Positions 1,570-7,953 of a stretch of DNA of 11,020 nt are shown here, in pieces (positions within the stretch are counted from its first letter, which is position 1; the number at the start of each line of letters is the position of its first letter). The position numbers and the translations under genes are program-made. This DNA is from Pseudomonadota bacterium. Its GTDB lineage: Bacteria; Pseudomonadota; Gammaproteobacteria; Burkholderiales; Rhodocyclaceae. The stretch covers positions 1 to 11,020 of the forward strand of contig JAUPVD010000278.1 of the NCBI GenBank assembly GCA_030917225.1, given 5' to 3'. Below the pieces are notes generated by a model that saw only the letters and a list, made by a program, of their open reading frames with translations, had not been told where the DNA came from and ran no database searches.

Positions 1570-1614
1570 CTGCGTCAGGCCGATCAGGCCGATCAGGCCG
1601 ATAGGGTGACGCAG
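1570..1614. terminator. Possible hairpin between convergent genes
   Basis: Between the convergent SCO and response-regulator genes, CTGCGTCA (1570-1577) is complementary to TGACGCAG (1607-1614). This gives an 8-base-pair stem with a 29-base loop made of 9-base repeats. The right arm lies inside the end of the response-regulator coding sequence. There is no T-run on either strand, so this is not a standard intrinsic terminator. Termination here is speculation. Confidence 0.25.
1572..1607. repeat. Degenerate 9-base tandem repeat over a stop codon
   Basis: Four consecutive 9-base units: GCGTCAGGC (1572-1580), CGATCAGGC (1581-1589), CGATCAGGC (1590-1598) and CGATAGGGT (1599-1607). The two central units are identical and the outer ones diverged. 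Read on the minus strand, the array spans the end of the response-regulator gene. Because the period is three codons, it puts three TGA stop codons in the same frame (1593-1595, 1584-1586, 1575-1577). It looks like local duplication of the last codons (Ser-Ala-stop). Confidence 0.7.
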
Positions 1615-2492
1615 GCCACGACCGTGCTGCCGCTACCCTGATACTCGATGTTGCAGAAGCTGGAACGGTGGGCCATGGCGATGCCGCGACCATTCGGATC
1701 GAAGATGCGCGAGGGGTCGAAGTCAAGGTAGCGCTGCCAGTCGAAGCCGTTGCCTTCGTCGGCGATGGTGAAGCACATTCTGTCGGCAAGACGCTCGAAA
1801 CGCACCCGGGCCACCCGGTTGCGAAATTGCGGCAGTTCCAGGCGACGATTGACCTCCGCCTGCCAGTCGTTCTCCATGAGCAGCAGCGTCTTTTCGCGAT
1901 AGGTGATGCCCAGATTGCCGTGCTCGACGGCGTTGATCATCAGCTCGGTCAGGCCGAACAGCACGCCCTGCGGGTTCGGGCAGAAGTCGGCGAGCAGTTG
2001 CGCCAGCTCGCTGGCCTCCTCCAGCGTGCGGAAACGGAACTCCACCACCGATAGCTGCTGGAATGCTTTCTCCAGGCATTCGGCGCGCGAGCGTGCGCTG
2101 CGCAGTGCATGGCGATCACCGATGGCGGCACGCACCACGGCGCACAGCGTCTCCGGTTCGTAGGGCTTGGTCAGGTAATAGTAGGCGCCGGCAGCCAGGC
2201 CTTCGCGCACCTGCTCGGGAGCTGCCGCCGCCGTCTGCATGATGACCGGGACATCGGCAAAGCGTGCGTCGGCCTTCATGCGGTTGAGAAGTGCCATGCC
2301 ATCGAGCACCGGCATCATGCGATCGAGAATCACCAGGTCGTAAGCCGGTCTGGCGCTTTCCAGCGCGGTCCAGGCGCATTCGCCATCCTGTGCTGTATCG
2401 AGCGTGTAGTTCTGCTCCTCGCACAGGTATTCCTCGATGATGGCGAGGTTCAGCGGTTCGTCGTCCACGGCAAGAATTCGGGTCTGGGTCAT
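1593..2492 (-). CDS. Response regulator with RsbW-like ATPase output domain
   Basis: Cytosolic 299-residue regulator. Residues about 5-122 form a receiver domain: acidic pair D10/D11, phosphoacceptor D57 (VILDRMMP), switch Thr T87 and K109 (YLTKPY). After a linker, residues about 150-297 form a GHKL/Bergerat ATPase domain with N-box E183/N187 (ELMINAVEHGN), G1 box DEGNGF (245-250) and a second glycine box NGRGIAMAH (267-275). There is no phosphoacceptor His, so this is not a kinase of the HisKA type. The domain resembles the anti-sigma/partner-switch kinases RsbW and SpoIIAB. No DNA-binding domain is present. The ATG overlaps the stop of the histidine-kinase gene (ATGA at 2489-2492), so it is translationally coupled to its likely phosphodonor. 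The output partner, for example an anti-sigma antagonist or a sigma factor, is not in the window. The gene ends in a 9-base repeat with three in-frame stops. Confidence 0.9.
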   Translation of the reverse strand: MTQTRILAVDDEPLNLAIIEEYLCEEQNYTLDTAQDGECAWTALESARPAYDLVILDRMMPVLDGMALLNRMKADARFADVPVIMQTAAAAPEQVREGLAAGAYYYLTKPYEPETLCAVVRAAIGDRHALRSARSRAECLEKAFQQLSVVEFRFRTLEEASELAQLLADFCPNPQGVLFGLTELMINAVEHGNLGITYREKTLLLMENDWQAEVNRRLELPQFRNRVARVRFERLADRMCFTIADEGNGFDWQRYLDFDPSRIFDPNGRGIAMAHRSSFCNIEYQGSGSTVVACVTLSA

Positions 2493-4576
2493 GGTGCCCT
2501 TTCGGTATCGATATCGTTCGCGTCCAGCGGCAGCTTCACCTCGAAGCAGGCCCCGCCGGATGGCTGGTTGTTGGCGCTTATGCTACCGCAATGCGCCTCG
2601 ACAATCTCGTGACAGATGGCCAGCCCGAGGCCGGTTCCACCGGCACCCGAACGGGTGCTGGAACTCTGCACGAATTTTTCGAAGATGGCATCTTCTTCGC
2701 CCGGAGGAATGCCGACGCCGCTATCGCATACCGAGATGCACATTGCTGGTTTCGGCAATCCGTCGCGACTCAGGGTGGCCGCGTGCCAACGGATGGTCAC
2801 GCTGGTGTTCTCGGCGGTGAACTTGATGGCGTTGCCGATCAGGTTGTTCAGCACCTGCATCAGACGCTCACGGTCGGCAGGAACCAGTGCAGGGTCGGGG
2901 CCCTCCACCAGCAGGCTGACCTTGCGGCTGGCAGCAAGGGCCGAAAGGCTGGCGACCGATTCGCTGGCAACCGCCGCGACATTGGTCTCGGTGATGGCCA
3001 TTGGCATGCGGCCGGCTTCCAGCTTGGAGAGGTCGAGCAGATCGTTGAGCAGCCCGAGCAGGCGCTTGCCGCTGTCGTGTATATGCGAAAAATACTCTTG
3101 CAGCTTGGCCGGGGTGGTCGAGTTGGCGCGGGTTTGACCAAGCCGAGCGAAGGAAAGCACGCCGTGCATCGGGGTGCGCAGTTCGTGCGACATGTTGGCC
3201 AGAAACTCGGATTTGGCACGGTTTGCACGTTCGGCCTCTTCCTTGGCCAGTTGCAGGTCGGCGGTCCGGGCGCTGATGAGTTCCTGCAGGTGGTCCTGAT
3301 GCTGGCGCAGTTCGAGCTCGTATTCCTTCTCCTGCGTGATATCCCAGTGCGTACCGACGACGCCGACAGGTTTGCCGGCGAGGTCGGCTTCGATGACCGC
3401 ATAGGCGCGGAAGAAGCGGCGCGATCCATCCGGCAGGCGGGCCGGGAAATCCATGTGGCGCGAACCTTTGCCGTCCCAGACTTCGGCAATCTGGTTGATG
3501 GCCTGCTGCGCGATGGCGGTTTCCATGCTCATGGCCCAGACCTTGTAGGGGTTTGGCTCGGCCTCGCGGCTGGAATGGTATTGGCTGTAGATTAAGTCGT
3601 CCCAGTACAGGCGTTCATCCTCGGCCACCCAGCGCCAGATGCCGATGCCGGCACCCTCGGTGGCGATGCTCAGCTGGCGGCTGAGAACGGCCATCCGCTC
3701 CTGTGCCTCTTTCCGTCGCGTGATGTCGCGGCCGGTGCCGCGATAGCCAAGGAACTCTCCCTCCGGAGAAAAACGTGGACGGCCGGAGATGCTGAACCAG
3801 CGCACTTCGCCCTGGTTGTCGCGAATGCGGTATTCGAAACTGCTGAATGGCCGGCGGGCATCCAGGTCGGCCTGGTGCCGTTGCCGATCATCGTCCGAAA
3901 TGATGATCGGCAGTTGCCAGCGGGTCGATCCGATAATCGTTGTCGGCACAAAGTTTTGCTTGTCACCGAGCGTGGTGTGTTCGGTGAAGCGCAGTTGTGC
4001 GTCCTGCTCCCAGATCCAGTCAGAACCGATGCCCGCCAGTTCACGGAAGCGTCTTTCACTTTCCTCGAGGGCCGTGTTGGCGCGGCGGATGCTGGCCAGT
4101 TGCAGTCGATAGAGCGGGTAGAAAAGCCCCAGTCCGAGCAGGCCGCTGGCCAGGGATATCCACAGCGTGTCGATCAACGATGCACGCAGCGAACCTTCGA
4201 CCGTAACACTGCCGACGGCCATGCCGGATTCCATGAAGTCGGCTGTGGCCGAGAGTGTCGGCCACTCCTGAATCGGGCCGAGGGAGGCCAGAACCTTGTT
4301 GCTGGTGTCCTGAATGAGCGAGCGGTGTGAAAAATGACGGACGTCGATGATGGCAGTGGCCAGACGTTCAGTGTCGTAGCCCCAGAGTTTGGGATTGCGG
4401 GCGACCGTTCGGGCAATCAGCGAGGACTGGGCGCGCGCCTCGGTTTCCAGGCTTTCGTTGATGCGTGCCTGCTCCATCAGGAGATACGTGATCGGCGGGA
4501 TCGCGGCGAGCACGAAGGCCGCGAACAGCCCCATGCGCAGCGCGGGGCGGGTGAGCCGGGCGACGGTTTTCGCCAT
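2489..4576 (-). CDS. Membrane PAS-PAS sensor histidine kinase
   Basis: Inner-membrane sensor kinase, 695 residues. A first membrane helix (about residues 13-34) and a second (about 134-157) enclose a periplasmic sensor region of about 100 residues with no family I can name. Two PAS domains with PAC-type tails follow, about 175-295 (ending GTGRDITRRKEAQ) and about 305-420 (ending GTHWDITQEKEYE), then a coiled-coil linker (about 420-455). The HisKA domain has phosphoacceptor H464 (MSHELRTPMHG). The HATPase_c domain (about 565-685) has N-box N578/N582, G1 DSGVGIP (618-624) and G2 GTGLGLAI (647-654). There is no attached receiver; the response regulator encoded next (4-base overlap) is the evident partner. 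The ATG shares one base with the stop of the upstream binding-protein gene (TGATG), and AGGAG lies 8 bases before it. The overlaps point to one operon in which the periplasmic binding protein may supply the signal; that link is inference. Confidence 0.95.
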   Translation of the reverse strand: MAKTVARLTRPALRMGLFAAFVLAAIPPITYLLMEQARINESLETEARAQSSLIARTVARNPKLWGYDTERLATAIIDVRHFSHRSLIQDTSNKVLASLGPIQEWPTLSATADFMESGMAVGSVTVEGSLRASLIDTLWISLASGLLGLGLFYPLYRLQLASIRRANTALEESERRFRELAGIGSDWIWEQDAQLRFTEHTTLGDKQNFVPTTIIGSTRWQLPIIISDDDRQRHQADLDARRPFSSFEYRIRDNQGEVRWFSISGRPRFSPEGEFLGYRGTGRDITRRKEAQERMAVLSRQLSIATEGAGIGIWRWVAEDERLYWDDLIYSQYHSSREAEPNPYKVWAMSMETAIAQQAINQIAEVWDGKGSRHMDFPARLPDGSRRFFRAYAVIEADLAGKPVGVVGTHWDITQEKEYELELRQHQDHLQELISARTADLQLAKEEAERANRAKSEFLANMSHELRTPMHGVLSFARLGQTRANSTTPAKLQEYFSHIHDSGKRLLGLLNDLLDLSKLEAGRMPMAITETNVAAVASESVASLSALAASRKVSLLVEGPDPALVPADRERLMQVLNNLIGNAIKFTAENTSVTIRWHAATLSRDGLPKPAMCISVCDSGVGIPPGEEDAIFEKFVQSSSTRSGAGGTGLGLAICHEIVEAHCGSISANNQPSGGACFEVKLPLDANDIDTERAP

Positions 4577-5382
4577 CAGCGGACTCCTGGCTGGTGACCC
4601 AGTTGCAGCAGCAGCTTGCGCGCGGGCGCCGACTGCAGGACGGAAACAAAGTCGGCAGTGGCGGCATCCTGCTGCACACGGGTATTGAGGAACAGCGACT
4701 TGGCCAGCGGGTAGATGCCTGTCGAGAGCATTTCGACGGAAGGTTGCGTGCCATCCAGTGTGTGGATGGTCAGCGGCTGTTCGAGCAGGCGGATCAGGCC
4801 GAGCGTGGTCAGCCCGAGCGAACCGGGTAGTTTGGCGATCAGTTCGATGGCGTCCAGGTCGTTTTCGCCAACGGGTCCGGCCTTGCGTTTGAGGGCCTCA
4901 TCGACTGCGGCGCTTATTTCAGGACCCAGCTGACGCAGCGTCAGCGTGTCGCTTTCGAAGGGGCTGCGCAGGACAAGGCGGATCGGTTCGCCGTCCGGCC
5001 ATTTCTGGCGCTTGCCGGCGTAGATGTCGGCGATTTCCCGGCGACTGAAATTCACTGGCTTCTGCTGGCTGCCGCTGGCGAATACCAGTGGTGAGCGAGC
5101 GTACTCGAGTGTTGTGAAACGGCCTTCCTCATCACGCGGTGGTCGGCCCGATATGGCGATATCGATGCGGCCAGCGGCCAGCGCGCGCAAGCCGCCGCTG
5201 GAACCGAGTGTCGGCTGGATGATGTCGAAGGTCGTGCCGGGGTGGGTTTTCTGATAGGTCTCGGCGAGCACCTTCAACAGCGTGGTACCGGAGCCCGTTC
5301 CACCGATACGCAAGGGTTCGGCTGCCATGAGCGGCGGCGCGATCAGAAGAGCAGCGATTGCCAGCAGGTGTCGGAATTGCAT
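4576..5382 (-). CDS. PstS-like periplasmic substrate-binding protein
   Basis: Periplasmic solute-binding protein of the PBP-like/PstS type, 268 residues. The signal peptide is MQFRHLLAIAALLIAPPLMA, with cleavage near residue 21. The mature start LRIGGTGSGTTLLKVL and the later GSSGGLRALAAGRIDIAIS match the two anion-binding loops of PstS-like proteins (Gly/Ser/Thr-rich turns). The ligand is probably an oxyanion, but phosphate is not proven. No permease or ATPase genes (pstCAB) are adjacent; the gene is joined to a histidine-kinase gene by a TGATG overlap, which suggests sensing rather than transport. Start choice: ATG at 5382 has AAGGG 8 bases upstream. An in-frame ATG at 5409 (277 residues) has no ribosome binding site and would lie only about 6 bases from the transcription start predicted from the -10 at 5422-5427. 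The frame stays open further upstream into the divergent ubiU gene, but without signal-peptide logic. Confidence 0.87.
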   Translation of the reverse strand: MQFRHLLAIAALLIAPPLMAAEPLRIGGTGSGTTLLKVLAETYQKTHPGTTFDIIQPTLGSSGGLRALAAGRIDIAISGRPPRDEEGRFTTLEYARSPLVFASGSQQKPVNFSRREIADIYAGKRQKWPDGEPIRLVLRSPFESDTLTLRQLGPEISAAVDEALKRKAGPVGENDLDAIELIAKLPGSLGLTTLGLIRLLEQPLTIHTLDGTQPSVEMLSTGIYPLAKSLFLNTRVQQDAATADFVSVLQSAPARKLLLQLGHQPGVR

Positions 5383-5421
5383 GCGCCAGACCCTTTGCGT
5401 GGTGTTCATGGCCGAAACGCC

Positions 5422-5451
5422 AGTATATATGCGGATGTCCTCGGCTGTTAG
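5422..5451 (-). promoter_or_regulatory. Predicted promoter of the binding protein-kinase-regulator operon
   Basis: Read on the minus strand: -10 TATACT (5427-5422, five of six consensus bases) and a weaker -35 CTAACA (5451-5446, four of six) with an 18-base spacer. Transcription would start near 5415, giving a leader of about 33 bases to the ATG at 5382. The FNR box at 5455-5468 lies just upstream of the -35, centred about 46 bases before this start. That is not a classical FNR activation distance, so any effect on this promoter is uncertain. Confidence 0.5.
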
Positions 5452-5454
5452 CGT

Positions 5455-5468
5455 TTGACGCACATCAA
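5455..5468 (+). promoter_or_regulatory. FNR/ANR-type binding site upstream of ubiUVT
   Basis: TTGACGCACATCAA matches the FNR/ANR consensus TTGAT-N4-ATCAA at 9 of 10 defined bases; only the fifth base differs (C for T). The palindrome centre is at 5461.5, exactly 41.5 bases before a transcription start at 5503, the start expected from the TACACT -10 at 5491-5496. That is the canonical class II FNR activation position. FNR is an oxygen-labile [4Fe-4S] regulator active without oxygen, which fits the anaerobic role of the downstream genes and the FNR control reported for E. coli ubiUV. Confidence 0.8.
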
Positions 5469-5490
5469 GGGTGAAAAAAAGCCCGGCAGA

Positions 5491-5496
5491 TACACT
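5491..5496 (+). promoter_or_regulatory. -10 element of the ubiUVT promoter
   Basis: TACACT (four of six bases of TATAAT) sits at -12 to -7 relative to a start at 5503, the spacing expected when FNR bound at 5455-5468 replaces the -35 contact. No good -35 lies 16-18 bases upstream, consistent with activator dependence. The resulting leader is about 24 bases and contains no strong Shine-Dalgarno sequence. Confidence 0.6.
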
Positions 5497-5526
5497 GGGC
5501 GTCCCCCGGATACCTACTCTTTCGCC

Positions 5527-6540
5527 ATGGATCGCTCCGCCTTGCCGGATCTCGTCTGCCCCGCTGGTAGTTTGCCGGCGCTGAAAACCGCAGTCGATAA
5601 CGGTGCCGATGCCGTTTATCTCGGTTTCAAAAACGATACCAACGCCCGCAATTTTGCCGGGCTCAACTTCGACCAGAAAACCATGGTTGAGGGTATCCGT
5701 TACGCCCATGGCAAGGGTTGCGAGGTGTTGATGGCGATCAATACCTTCCCGCAGCCGGGGCGTACTGCCGACTGGCGGGCGGCAGTGGACGCCGCTGCCG
5801 ACATGGGAGTGGATGCGATCATCCTCGCCGACGTCGGCCTGCTCGACTACGCTCGCAACCGTCACCCGAACCAGCGCCTGCACCTTTCGGTACAGGGTTC
5901 GGCGACCAGCTACGAGGCGATCAACTTTGCCCACCGCGAGTTCGGCGTGCGCCGCGCCGTGCTGCCGCGTGTGCTGACGCTGGCCCAGGTCGAACATGTG
6001 ATCAAGAACACGCCAGTCGAGATCGAGGTCTTCGGCTTCGGCAGCCTGTGCGTCATGAACGAGGGCCGCTGCTGGCTTTCTTCTTATGCCTGCGGTGAAT
6101 CACCGAATACAGTGGGCGCTTGCTCGCCGGCCAAATACGTCAAGTGGGACAAAAAGCCCGGCGAGATGGAGACGCGGCTGAACGGCATCCTGATCGATCG
6201 TTTTGCCGACAACGAACCGGCTGGCTACCCGACTCTGTGCAAGGGCCGCTTTGACGTGCAGGGCGAAACCTATTACGCGCTTGAGGAACCAACCAGCCTG
6301 AACGTGCTGGAGATTCTGCCCGAGATCGTCAAGATCGGCGTCAAGGCGATCAAGGTTGAAGGTCGACAGCGCAGCCCGGCCTACGTGACGCAGGTCACCC
6401 GCACACTGCGTGCCGCACTGGATGCGCTGGCCAACGAGAGTGAGCGCTACCACGTCAAACCGACCTGGCAGGCCGAATTGTCCAAGGTGTCGGAAGGCAA
6501 TCAGGCGACGCTCGGCGCCTACAACCGGCCGTGGAGGTAA
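5527..6540 (+). CDS. ubiU: UbiU, O2-independent ubiquinone hydroxylation subunit (U32 family)
   Basis: UbiU (formerly YhbU), a U32 'peptidase'-family protein that with UbiV carries out oxygen-independent hydroxylation of ubiquinone precursors, so ubiquinone can be made anaerobically. It is cytosolic and binds a [4Fe-4S] cluster. The 337-residue product follows the E. coli protein closely along its length (e.g. [43 protein letters not shown]). The four cluster cysteines are present at C175, C182, C199 and C238, each six residues beyond the recalled E. coli positions 169/176/193/232, matching a six-residue longer N-terminus. Start: ATG at 5527 gives the family N-terminus; the frame is open upstream to 5455, but that part overlaps the FNR promoter. 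There is no strong ribosome binding site. It is the first gene of ubiUVT and is followed after 4 bases by ubiV. Confidence 0.97.
6533..6537 (+). promoter_or_regulatory. Ribosome binding site of ubiV inside the ubiU end
   Basis: GGAGG lies in the last codons of ubiU, immediately before its TAA, 7 bases before the ubiV ATG at 6545. This placement fixes the ubiV start and implies translational coupling. Confidence 0.8.
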
Positions 6541-6544
6541 GGGA

Positions 6545-7474
6545 ATGAAGCTGGCGCTCGGTCCCTTGTTGTACTTCTGGACCAAGGAAGAAGTACTGAA
6601 TTTTTATGCCGAGATGGCGCAGAACCCGGCCATCGAGATCATCTATGTCGGCGAAGTCGTCTGCTCGCGCCGCCAGCAGATGCGCACCGCCGACTGGGTC
6701 GGGCTGGCGCGCGACCTGACCGATGCCGGCAAGGAAGTGGTGGTGTCGGCGCAGGCGCTGCTGGAGTCGGAAAGCGATCTCAAGGCGATGCGCCGGCTGA
6801 TCGACGAACTGGCGGAGAATCCCGGCTGCAGCATCGAGGCCAACGACCTCGGTGCGGTCAATCTGGTGCAGGGCGGCAAGCCTTTCGTCGCCGGCCCACA
6901 CCTCAACATCTACAACGAGGAAACGCTGGCCACCTATGCCCGCTATGGCATGAAACGCTGGGTGCCGCCGCTGGAGGCCGACCGCAAGCTGATCGATCTC
7001 CTGCACAAGAGTCGCCCGGCAGGTGTCGAAACCGAGGTCTTCGTCTTCGGCAAGCTGCCGTTGGCCTTCTCGGCGCGCTGCTTCACCGCCCGCCACTACA
7101 ACCTGAACAAGGACGACTGCCAGTTCAAGTGTCTTGACCACCCCGAGGGCATGACACTGAAGACCCGCGAAGGGCAGGCCTTCCTGTGCATCAACGGTAT
7201 CCAGACCATGTCGGCGCAGAGTTACAATCTGCTCGGCGAGGTGGCGACAATGCGCGAAATGGGCATCGACATCATCCGCGTCAGCCCGCAGCCAAAATAC
7301 ACGACGGAAATCGTTGCCGCCTTCGATGCTGCGCGTCGCGGTGAATTGACATCAGCTGCGGCGAGTACCAACCCTGCGTGGAACAGCGAAGGGCTGGTCG
7401 ATGGCTACTGGTTTGGCGACGCGGGCATCGTTCAGCGCAACGGCCAGGCCGTAGCCGAACTGCAAGGAGCATGA
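6545..7474 (+). CDS. ubiV: UbiV, O2-independent ubiquinone hydroxylation subunit (U32 family)
   Basis: UbiV (formerly YhbV), partner of UbiU in the anaerobic ubiquinone hydroxylation complex; cytosolic and [4Fe-4S]-containing. The 309-residue product has the U32 fold signature with N-terminal [10 protein letters not shown] and [11 protein letters not shown]. Cysteines C40, C179, C192 and C196 have the same internal spacing (Cx12Cx3C for the last three) as the E. coli cluster ligands recalled as C39/C180/C193/C197. An additional cysteine, C95, is outside that pattern. The start at 6545 is set by GGAGG 7 bases upstream. The stop overlaps an ATGA with the first possible ubiT ATG. Both iron-sulfur proteins have intact cluster ligands, so the pathway is predicted functional. 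Confidence 0.96.
7464..7469 (+). promoter_or_regulatory. Ribosome binding site deciding the ubiT start
   Basis: AAGGAG ends one base before an ATG at 7471 and 7 bases before a second in-frame ATG at 7477. Only the second has normal spacing, so ubiT probably starts at 7477; the 7471 ATG would overlap the ubiV stop as ATGA. Confidence 0.7.
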
Positions 7475-7476
7475 AC

Positions 7477-7953
7477 ATGAATCAAGGTTTCACGATACCG
7501 AAGTTCCAGCTTCCCGGCTTTGTCGCTCGCCTTGGCGAAAAGCTGCCGCAGTGGCCGCATGCCGTCGCGCTGACCACGGCGCTGAATGCTGCCGTGAAGA
7601 TGAATCTGCTGCCGGAAGAGAGCCTTGAGCCGATGCAGGACAAGACCTTTCTGGTGCAGGTAATCGATACCGGCGGCCAAGCCTCCTTCACTTACCGCAA
7701 CGGCTTTTTCCGCCCGATCTTCAGGCCGGTCGGCTCGCCTGACCTGGCCTTCCGCGCCAATCTCTCGGCTTTTCTTCAGGTGGCTTCACGCCAGGAGGAT
7801 CCGGATACGCTGTTCTTCAACCGCGAGTTGTCGATCGAGGGTGATACCGAACTCGGGCTGTTGGTGAAGAACATGCTGGACGCAGTCGATCTGTCCCAGT
7901 TCCGGCCGCAGCTGCCCAAGCTTCCGTTCAGCCTGCCACTCGGACAACGCTGA
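7477..7953 (+). CDS. ubiT: UbiT, SCP2-domain lipid carrier for anaerobic ubiquinone synthesis
   Basis: UbiT (formerly YhbT) is a small SCP2-domain accessory protein of the oxygen-independent ubiquinone pathway, thought to bind hydrophobic intermediates and to be the anaerobic counterpart of UbiJ. The 158-residue product has an SCP2 fold at about residues 40-145. The diagnostic block around QEDPDTLFFNRELSIEGDTE (about residues 107-126), followed by LGLLVKNMLDAVDL, closely matches the E. coli protein. The N-terminal region FTIPKFQLPGFVARLGEKLP is proline-rich and amphipathic and may contact the membrane (inference). It is slightly shorter than the E. coli protein (about 174 residues), mainly at the C-terminus. 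It is third in the operon, 2 bases after ubiV using the ATG at 7477; 7471 is an alternative start. In E. coli ubiT is divergent from ubiUV; here all three are codirectional. Confidence 0.95.
   Translation: MNQGFTIPKFQLPGFVARLGEKLPQWPHAVALTTALNAAVKMNLLPEESLEPMQDKTFLVQVIDTGGQASFTYRNGFFRPIFRPVGSPDLAFRANLSAFLQVASRQEDPDTLFFNRELSIEGDTELGLLVKNMLDAVDLSQFRPQLPKLPFSLPLGQR

Follow-up and report, generated by a model that had tools for sequence, protein, structure and literature searches.

The DNA directly upstream of ubiU in this Rhodocyclaceae genome (positions 5455–5526 of the window, the whole 11,020-nucleotide stretch analysed) is very probably a class II FNR-activated promoter of a ubiUVT operon. 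On the plus strand, ubiU is preceded by an FNR-type box, TTGACGCACATCAA (5455–5468, centre 5461.5), followed by 22 nt, a −10 hexamer TACACT (5491–5496), 30 nt and the ATG. The box agrees with the FNR/ANR consensus TTGATNNNNATCAA at 9/10 positions and the best −35 candidate at spacers of 15–19 in the window has 2/6 matches; both observations bear out the original prediction, which had described a near-consensus box and no good −35. A G at 5489 (plus strand), two bases 5′ of the −10, occupies position −14, as in an extended −10. If transcription starts 7 nt past the −10, at 5503, the box centre is 41.5 nt away and the 5′UTR would be about 24 nt long. The earlier claim that the centre lies exactly 41.5 bases before the start holds insofar as the 22-nt gap to TACACT fits, but “exactly” depends on the assumed start. 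The box-to-TACACT distance, which fits a centre at −41.5 for this inferred start, also equals the gap preferred by the genome’s other boxes.

Modelled on what known families do in binding, activation, start-site use and physiology, the promoter would work as follows. At low oxygen, FNR would retain its [4Fe-4S] cluster, dimerise and bind 5455–5468, about 41.5 bp before the start and over the place of the missing −35, from where it would recruit RNA polymerase to the weak −10 TACACT. UbiU, UbiV and UbiT would then be made and ubiquinone synthesis would go on without oxygen, feeding anaerobic respiration; the same genome also has napA- and nosZ-type genes. FNR-type control of ubiUVT, the core of the original prediction, appears well supported by a box in 67/80 relatives, a fixed distance to the −10, an FNR with cluster cysteines and an E..SR motif, and the 22-nt geometry elsewhere in the genome.

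Downstream, ubiU (5527–6540), ubiV (6545–7474) and ubiT (7471–7953, with its start at 7471 or 7477, at the ubiV stop) are adjacent on the plus strand, and all three exceed NCBIfam equivalog cut-offs (NF047963, 555.9 bits, cut-off 440; NF047965, 382.1 bits, cut-off 275; NF047962, 127.4 bits on 7474–7953, cut-off 46.9), which identifies the oxygen-independent ubiquinone operon ubiUVT. An open frame runs from 5455, and the TTG of the box could be taken as the ubiU start by an automatic gene caller, in which case the promoter would be hidden. Matches to relatives begin at residue 1–7 of the ubiU form that starts at 5527 in 79/80 loci, and at residue 12 in the truncated L070. In an Rfam search of the window no family reached threshold, although Rfam may not include the small RNA SicX, and on that result we do not favour RNA leader control of ubiUVT.

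We scored the ubiU upstream regions of relatives, a check that had been proposed with the original prediction, and recovered both the box and a −10 at a fixed distance. The relatives are 80 named loci, the best of 91 confirmed ones, and, having been found via short exact peptides, are close kin. A family search detected ubiU in 164/199 genomes, upstream regions being scored for the 80 named loci; loci L097–L125 overlap this set and were left out of the counts. The nearest named ubiU relatives (L016–L020), with 91–94% identity, come from MAGs whose labels read Rhodocyclaceae, Rhodocyclales or just Proteobacteria. Among these best 80 of 91, a box of at least 8/10 lies within 300 nt upstream of ubiU in 67 and one of at least 9/10 in 64, with L070, which has one base upstream of its match, scored as a miss in the 67/80.

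The distance between box and −10 is nearly constant across the 68 boxed promoters (67 relatives and the window). TATACT stands at a gap of exactly 21 nt in 62 of them, and the other six, the window and L016–L020, have a gap of 22 with TACACT or TAGACT as the hexamer. The expected distance is thus fixed among relatives, but outside the window’s genus the box lies one base nearer, at 21 and not 22 nt. The fifth base of the −10 is C in 68/68 boxed promoters and position −14 is G in 66/68; the eighth base past the −10 is T in 62/62 gap-21 rows and 3/6 gap-22 rows. A −35 of 4/6 can be found in 16/68, the remaining 52 having at most three matches. Column conservation was computed over 41 gap-21 representatives below 75% identity, picked by a box of at least 8/10 and not selected for the −10. 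TATACT is kept in 41/41 and TTGA and ATCA stand at 0.98–1.00; in the 21-column spacer, conservation is 0.34–0.6 at 14 columns and 0.63–0.98 at the other seven, which include the G at −14. In a phylogeny of UbiU with 81 rows, the gap-22 rows group in a single clade (97/91); its sister, L021 and L022 (95/87), has gap 21, so that a single shift from 21 to 22 suffices. In E. coli, 19/23 FNR-activated promoters with a known start are reported to have the site at −41.5 ± 4, some of them at −40.5 (PMC3688515), and gaps of 21 and 22 nt therefore both fit class II.

The same box pattern is frequent across the genome. Matches to TTGAYNNNNRTCAA number 26 against 2 for a reversed control pattern in the window’s own genome, a MAG-like, fragmented assembly (2.6 Mb, 74% complete, 509 contigs; the window is contig C247), and 188 against 6 summed over seven genomes of its genus; the counts in other genera are 30 against 7 (G112) and 29 against 6 (G018). 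Gaps were counted between exact matches to TTGAYNNNNRTCAA and hexamers with at least 4/6 matches to TATAAT that keep A at position 2 and T at position 6, leaving out both window boxes in the own genome and the ubiU boxes in G053, G112 and G018. The 24 other exact boxes in the own genome have 48 flanks, in which a −10-like hexamer occurs 14 times at gap 22 and once each at 21 and 23, with a mean of 0.69 and a maximum of 3 at the remaining gaps. The sibling genome G053 (60 flanks) gives 12 at gap 22, none at 21 and two at 23 (mean 0.69, maximum 3 elsewhere), counts that are not independent of the first because the two genomes have genes in common. Regulon signal and gap peak are weaker in the outgroups, where gaps 21, 22 and 23 are used 3, 3 and 3 times in G112 (mean 0.90) and 3, 4 and 1 times in G018 (mean 0.53); G112 also shows four −10-like hexamers at gap 42.

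In the own genome, boxes precede or adjoin hemN/fnr, ccoN, napA, nosZ and ctaA, among others, and some show the 22-nt geometry. Of these genes, hemN is above its cut-off, whereas ctaA falls below its full-length cut-off, as do napA, ccoN and nosZ, all three truncated by locus ends. Some boxes sit inside long open frames (L008, L162) and may be chance occurrences. A further locus, L163, was suspected of being nirS from its N-terminus; family searches gave first nothing and later weak cytochrome c matches, and we make no such claim. The genus’s other gap-22 promoters carry G at −14 in 2/14 cases (own genome) and 0/12 (G053), and T at the eighth base after the −10 in 5/14 and 2/12; in the outgroups G112 and G018, pooled, the values are 5/17 for G and 3/17 for T. 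Neither the G nor the T that is invariant in gap-21 ubiU promoters is preferred where the genus has other FNR-type promoters.

The genome encodes an FNR (L126:1477–2229, minus strand; NF008365, 259.9 bits, cut-off 228) whose C-x2-C-x5-C motif and fourth C align with the solved FNR structures 5cvr/5e44 and whose ETVSR aligns with ETISR; it thus has the four cluster cysteines and the E..SR recognition helix of an oxygen-sensing FNR. Its gene and hemN are transcribed divergently, and a box lies in the DNA that separates them. A DNR-type regulator is also present (L135:1033–1731, plus strand), with DNR 3dkw as best solved match (E 8.9e-33) and an E..SR helix; it reaches no NCBIfam cut-off. FNR and DNR sites are alike, and the box alone cannot tell FNR from a DNR-type paralogue. 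We consider it unlikely that the box is used mainly by this paralogue, so that ubiUVT would answer nitric oxide during denitrification and not oxygen itself, or that it is common to both regulators. The DNR-type gene and the boxes by the denitrification genes nosZ and napA would agree with such a role, but the activators reported elsewhere are FNR in E. coli (PMC10470549) and Anr in P. aeruginosa (PMC10247376).

Activation of ubiUVT by FNR also has to be weighed against use of the box by the neighbouring gene. A divergent group on the minus strand (1593–5409) encodes a PBP-like (PstS-related) protein, a PAS histidine kinase and, in addition, a response regulator that has a HATPase domain. The PBP-like gene (4576–5409, minus strand; PF12849) probably lies outside the ubiUVT system. 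A sigma-70-like minus-strand site, CTAACA-18-TATACT at 5451–5422 (9/12 matches; shuffle mean 0.2 such sites), suggests that this gene has its own promoter near the box, and the box might then serve it, its distance to TACACT being accidental. We judge this very improbable: the gap between the box and the minus-strand TATACT is 27 nt instead of 22, and tblastn found no homologue of the PBP-like gene in the DNA available for the 80 relatives, some loci having little upstream, whereas the box is present in 67.

Coincidence as the origin of box and −10 has a negligible chance of being right, for although a perfect box within ubiU shows that chance boxes do arise, genome enrichment, spacing, conservation and shuffling all contradict it, 3/20,000 dinucleotide shuffles of 5410–5526 containing such a box and 0/20,000 containing a box, 22 nt and a −10. 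A looser scan of the whole window with one mismatch allowed gave three matches (shuffle mean 0.69; 8/200 shuffles reach three) and is weak evidence taken alone. The perfect 10/10 box lies at 5728–5741, within the ubiU coding sequence. We rejected it as a second operator and judge it a coincidence, since 5/80 relatives match it, the commonest form has CTG instead of TTG and its codons encode a conserved peptide. The box at 5455–5468 looks real: it is well conserved and appears placed for switch-on when oxygen runs out.

Twelve relatives have upstream DNA but no box that reaches 8/10 within 300 nt, and L070 is the thirteenth miss among the 80. As judged by eye, Propionivibrio dicarboxylicus (L075) retains the right half-site ATCAT and a TATACT at the 21-nt gap, whereas its left half-site is gone; as a strict anaerobe, this species may not need oxygen control. 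L083, L084, L092 and L093 have a weaker site (7/10) around −77 to −81 relative to the ubiU match, and it reads TTGACnCGnCGCAA in the first three. At the same place, these loci have a different, partly palindromic site instead of an FNR box, with GCCTTGAC..CGCAAGGC in the first three. An open frame upstream of ubiU runs up to or into the gene in L085, L086, L088, L090, L091 and L095; it encodes a TIGR01212 (MnmL/YtqA) radical SAM protein in both loci tested (L086 and L095), and the upstream DNA present at the six loci contains no exact box. L089 has two 8/10 sites just past 300 nt and one 9/10 site at −1137. The Azonexus/Dechloromonas/Propionivibrio group thus shows strong wiring, whereas among the more distant relatives in this sample it is weak or missing.

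Control of ubiUV by FNR in E. coli, to which the original prediction had appealed, is reported as proven by experiment, the genes being needed for anaerobic ubiquinone (PMC10470549). Like site F1 in that system, the FNR-type site here stands before ubiU at a distance suited to activation. The present arrangement differs in that F1, TTGATTTAAGGCAG, has a degenerate right half, whereas here there is one 9/10 box, and in that E. coli ubiT is divergent and has a separate FNR site, F2, whereas ubiUVT here lies on one strand (PMC10470549). In P. aeruginosa, transcription of a ubiUVT operon under Anr has been shown by experiment (PMC10247376); the gene order is the same as here and the regulator is an FNR homologue, as predicted for the window. 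Translation of that operon is described as also controlled by the sRNA SicX via a 5′UTR stem-loop (PMC10247376), whereas here the inferred leader is short and the window has no Rfam match. A survey of 1566 ubiTUV triplets in Pseudomonadota reports predicted FNR sites before ubiU in 1180 and before ubiU, ubiT or both in 1362 (PMC11707229). The original prediction had expected this kind of control to recur in a class and gene order other than those of E. coli: an FNR-type box does stand before ubiUVT, but as a surprise the idea had been anticipated in print (PMC11707229, PMC10247376). Given FNR control in E. coli, Anr control in P. aeruginosa and predicted sites in 1362/1566 triplets, the present case is a further example of published wiring.

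The survey describes median distances to the start codon (PMC11707229), whereas the box-to-−10 spacing of 21 nt, the invariant TATACT core and the single one-base respacing to 22 in the window’s genus are added by the present analysis. We found no paper in the open-access literature on the box-to-−10 spacing of ubiU and nothing linking ubiTUV with Rhodocyclaceae. Ideonella dechloratans is a betaproteobacterium. Its cld promoter is likewise described as of class II FNR type and was tested with the native FNR in E. coli; it differs from the present one in driving another gene and in its weaker −10, GAAGAT, with TG at −15/−14 (PMC7349173). With the present case, the published rule that FNR homologues switch on oxygen-independent ubiquinone synthesis would extend, with its geometry given at the base level, to a Rhodocyclaceae genus with napA- and nosZ-type genes, and the occurrence of 21 and 22 nt with the same core offers a natural experiment on the precision that class II spacing requires.

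A joint reading of these data, which we offer tentatively as one possibility, is that Rhodocyclaceae and Azonexaceae have, before ubiU, a finely tuned class II module made up of the box, 21 nt, GnTATACT and an invariant T eight bases on. In the window’s genus, whose other FNR boxes show a strong preference for 22 nt, the module would have gained one base in a single event, and its −10 would have become weaker. The T and the C at the fifth −10 base, both invariant, would then mark a further layer of control that the genus’s other FNR promoters lack, for instance the choice of start site or a built-in weakness through which the promoter stays dependent on FNR.

One observation on the UbiU tree concerns the labels of the relatives. 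The ubiU genes of L076, L077 and L079, labelled Nitrosomonadales, Gallionellaceae and Sideroxyarcus, form one clade (100/100) that sits within the 70-row Rhodocyclaceae/Azonexaceae group (100/99), and the box and TATACT at 21 nt are found there too. Other Gallionellaceae (L088, L095) lie far from this clade on the tree, and the pattern suggests that the operon was transferred together with its promoter or that the bins are mislabelled.
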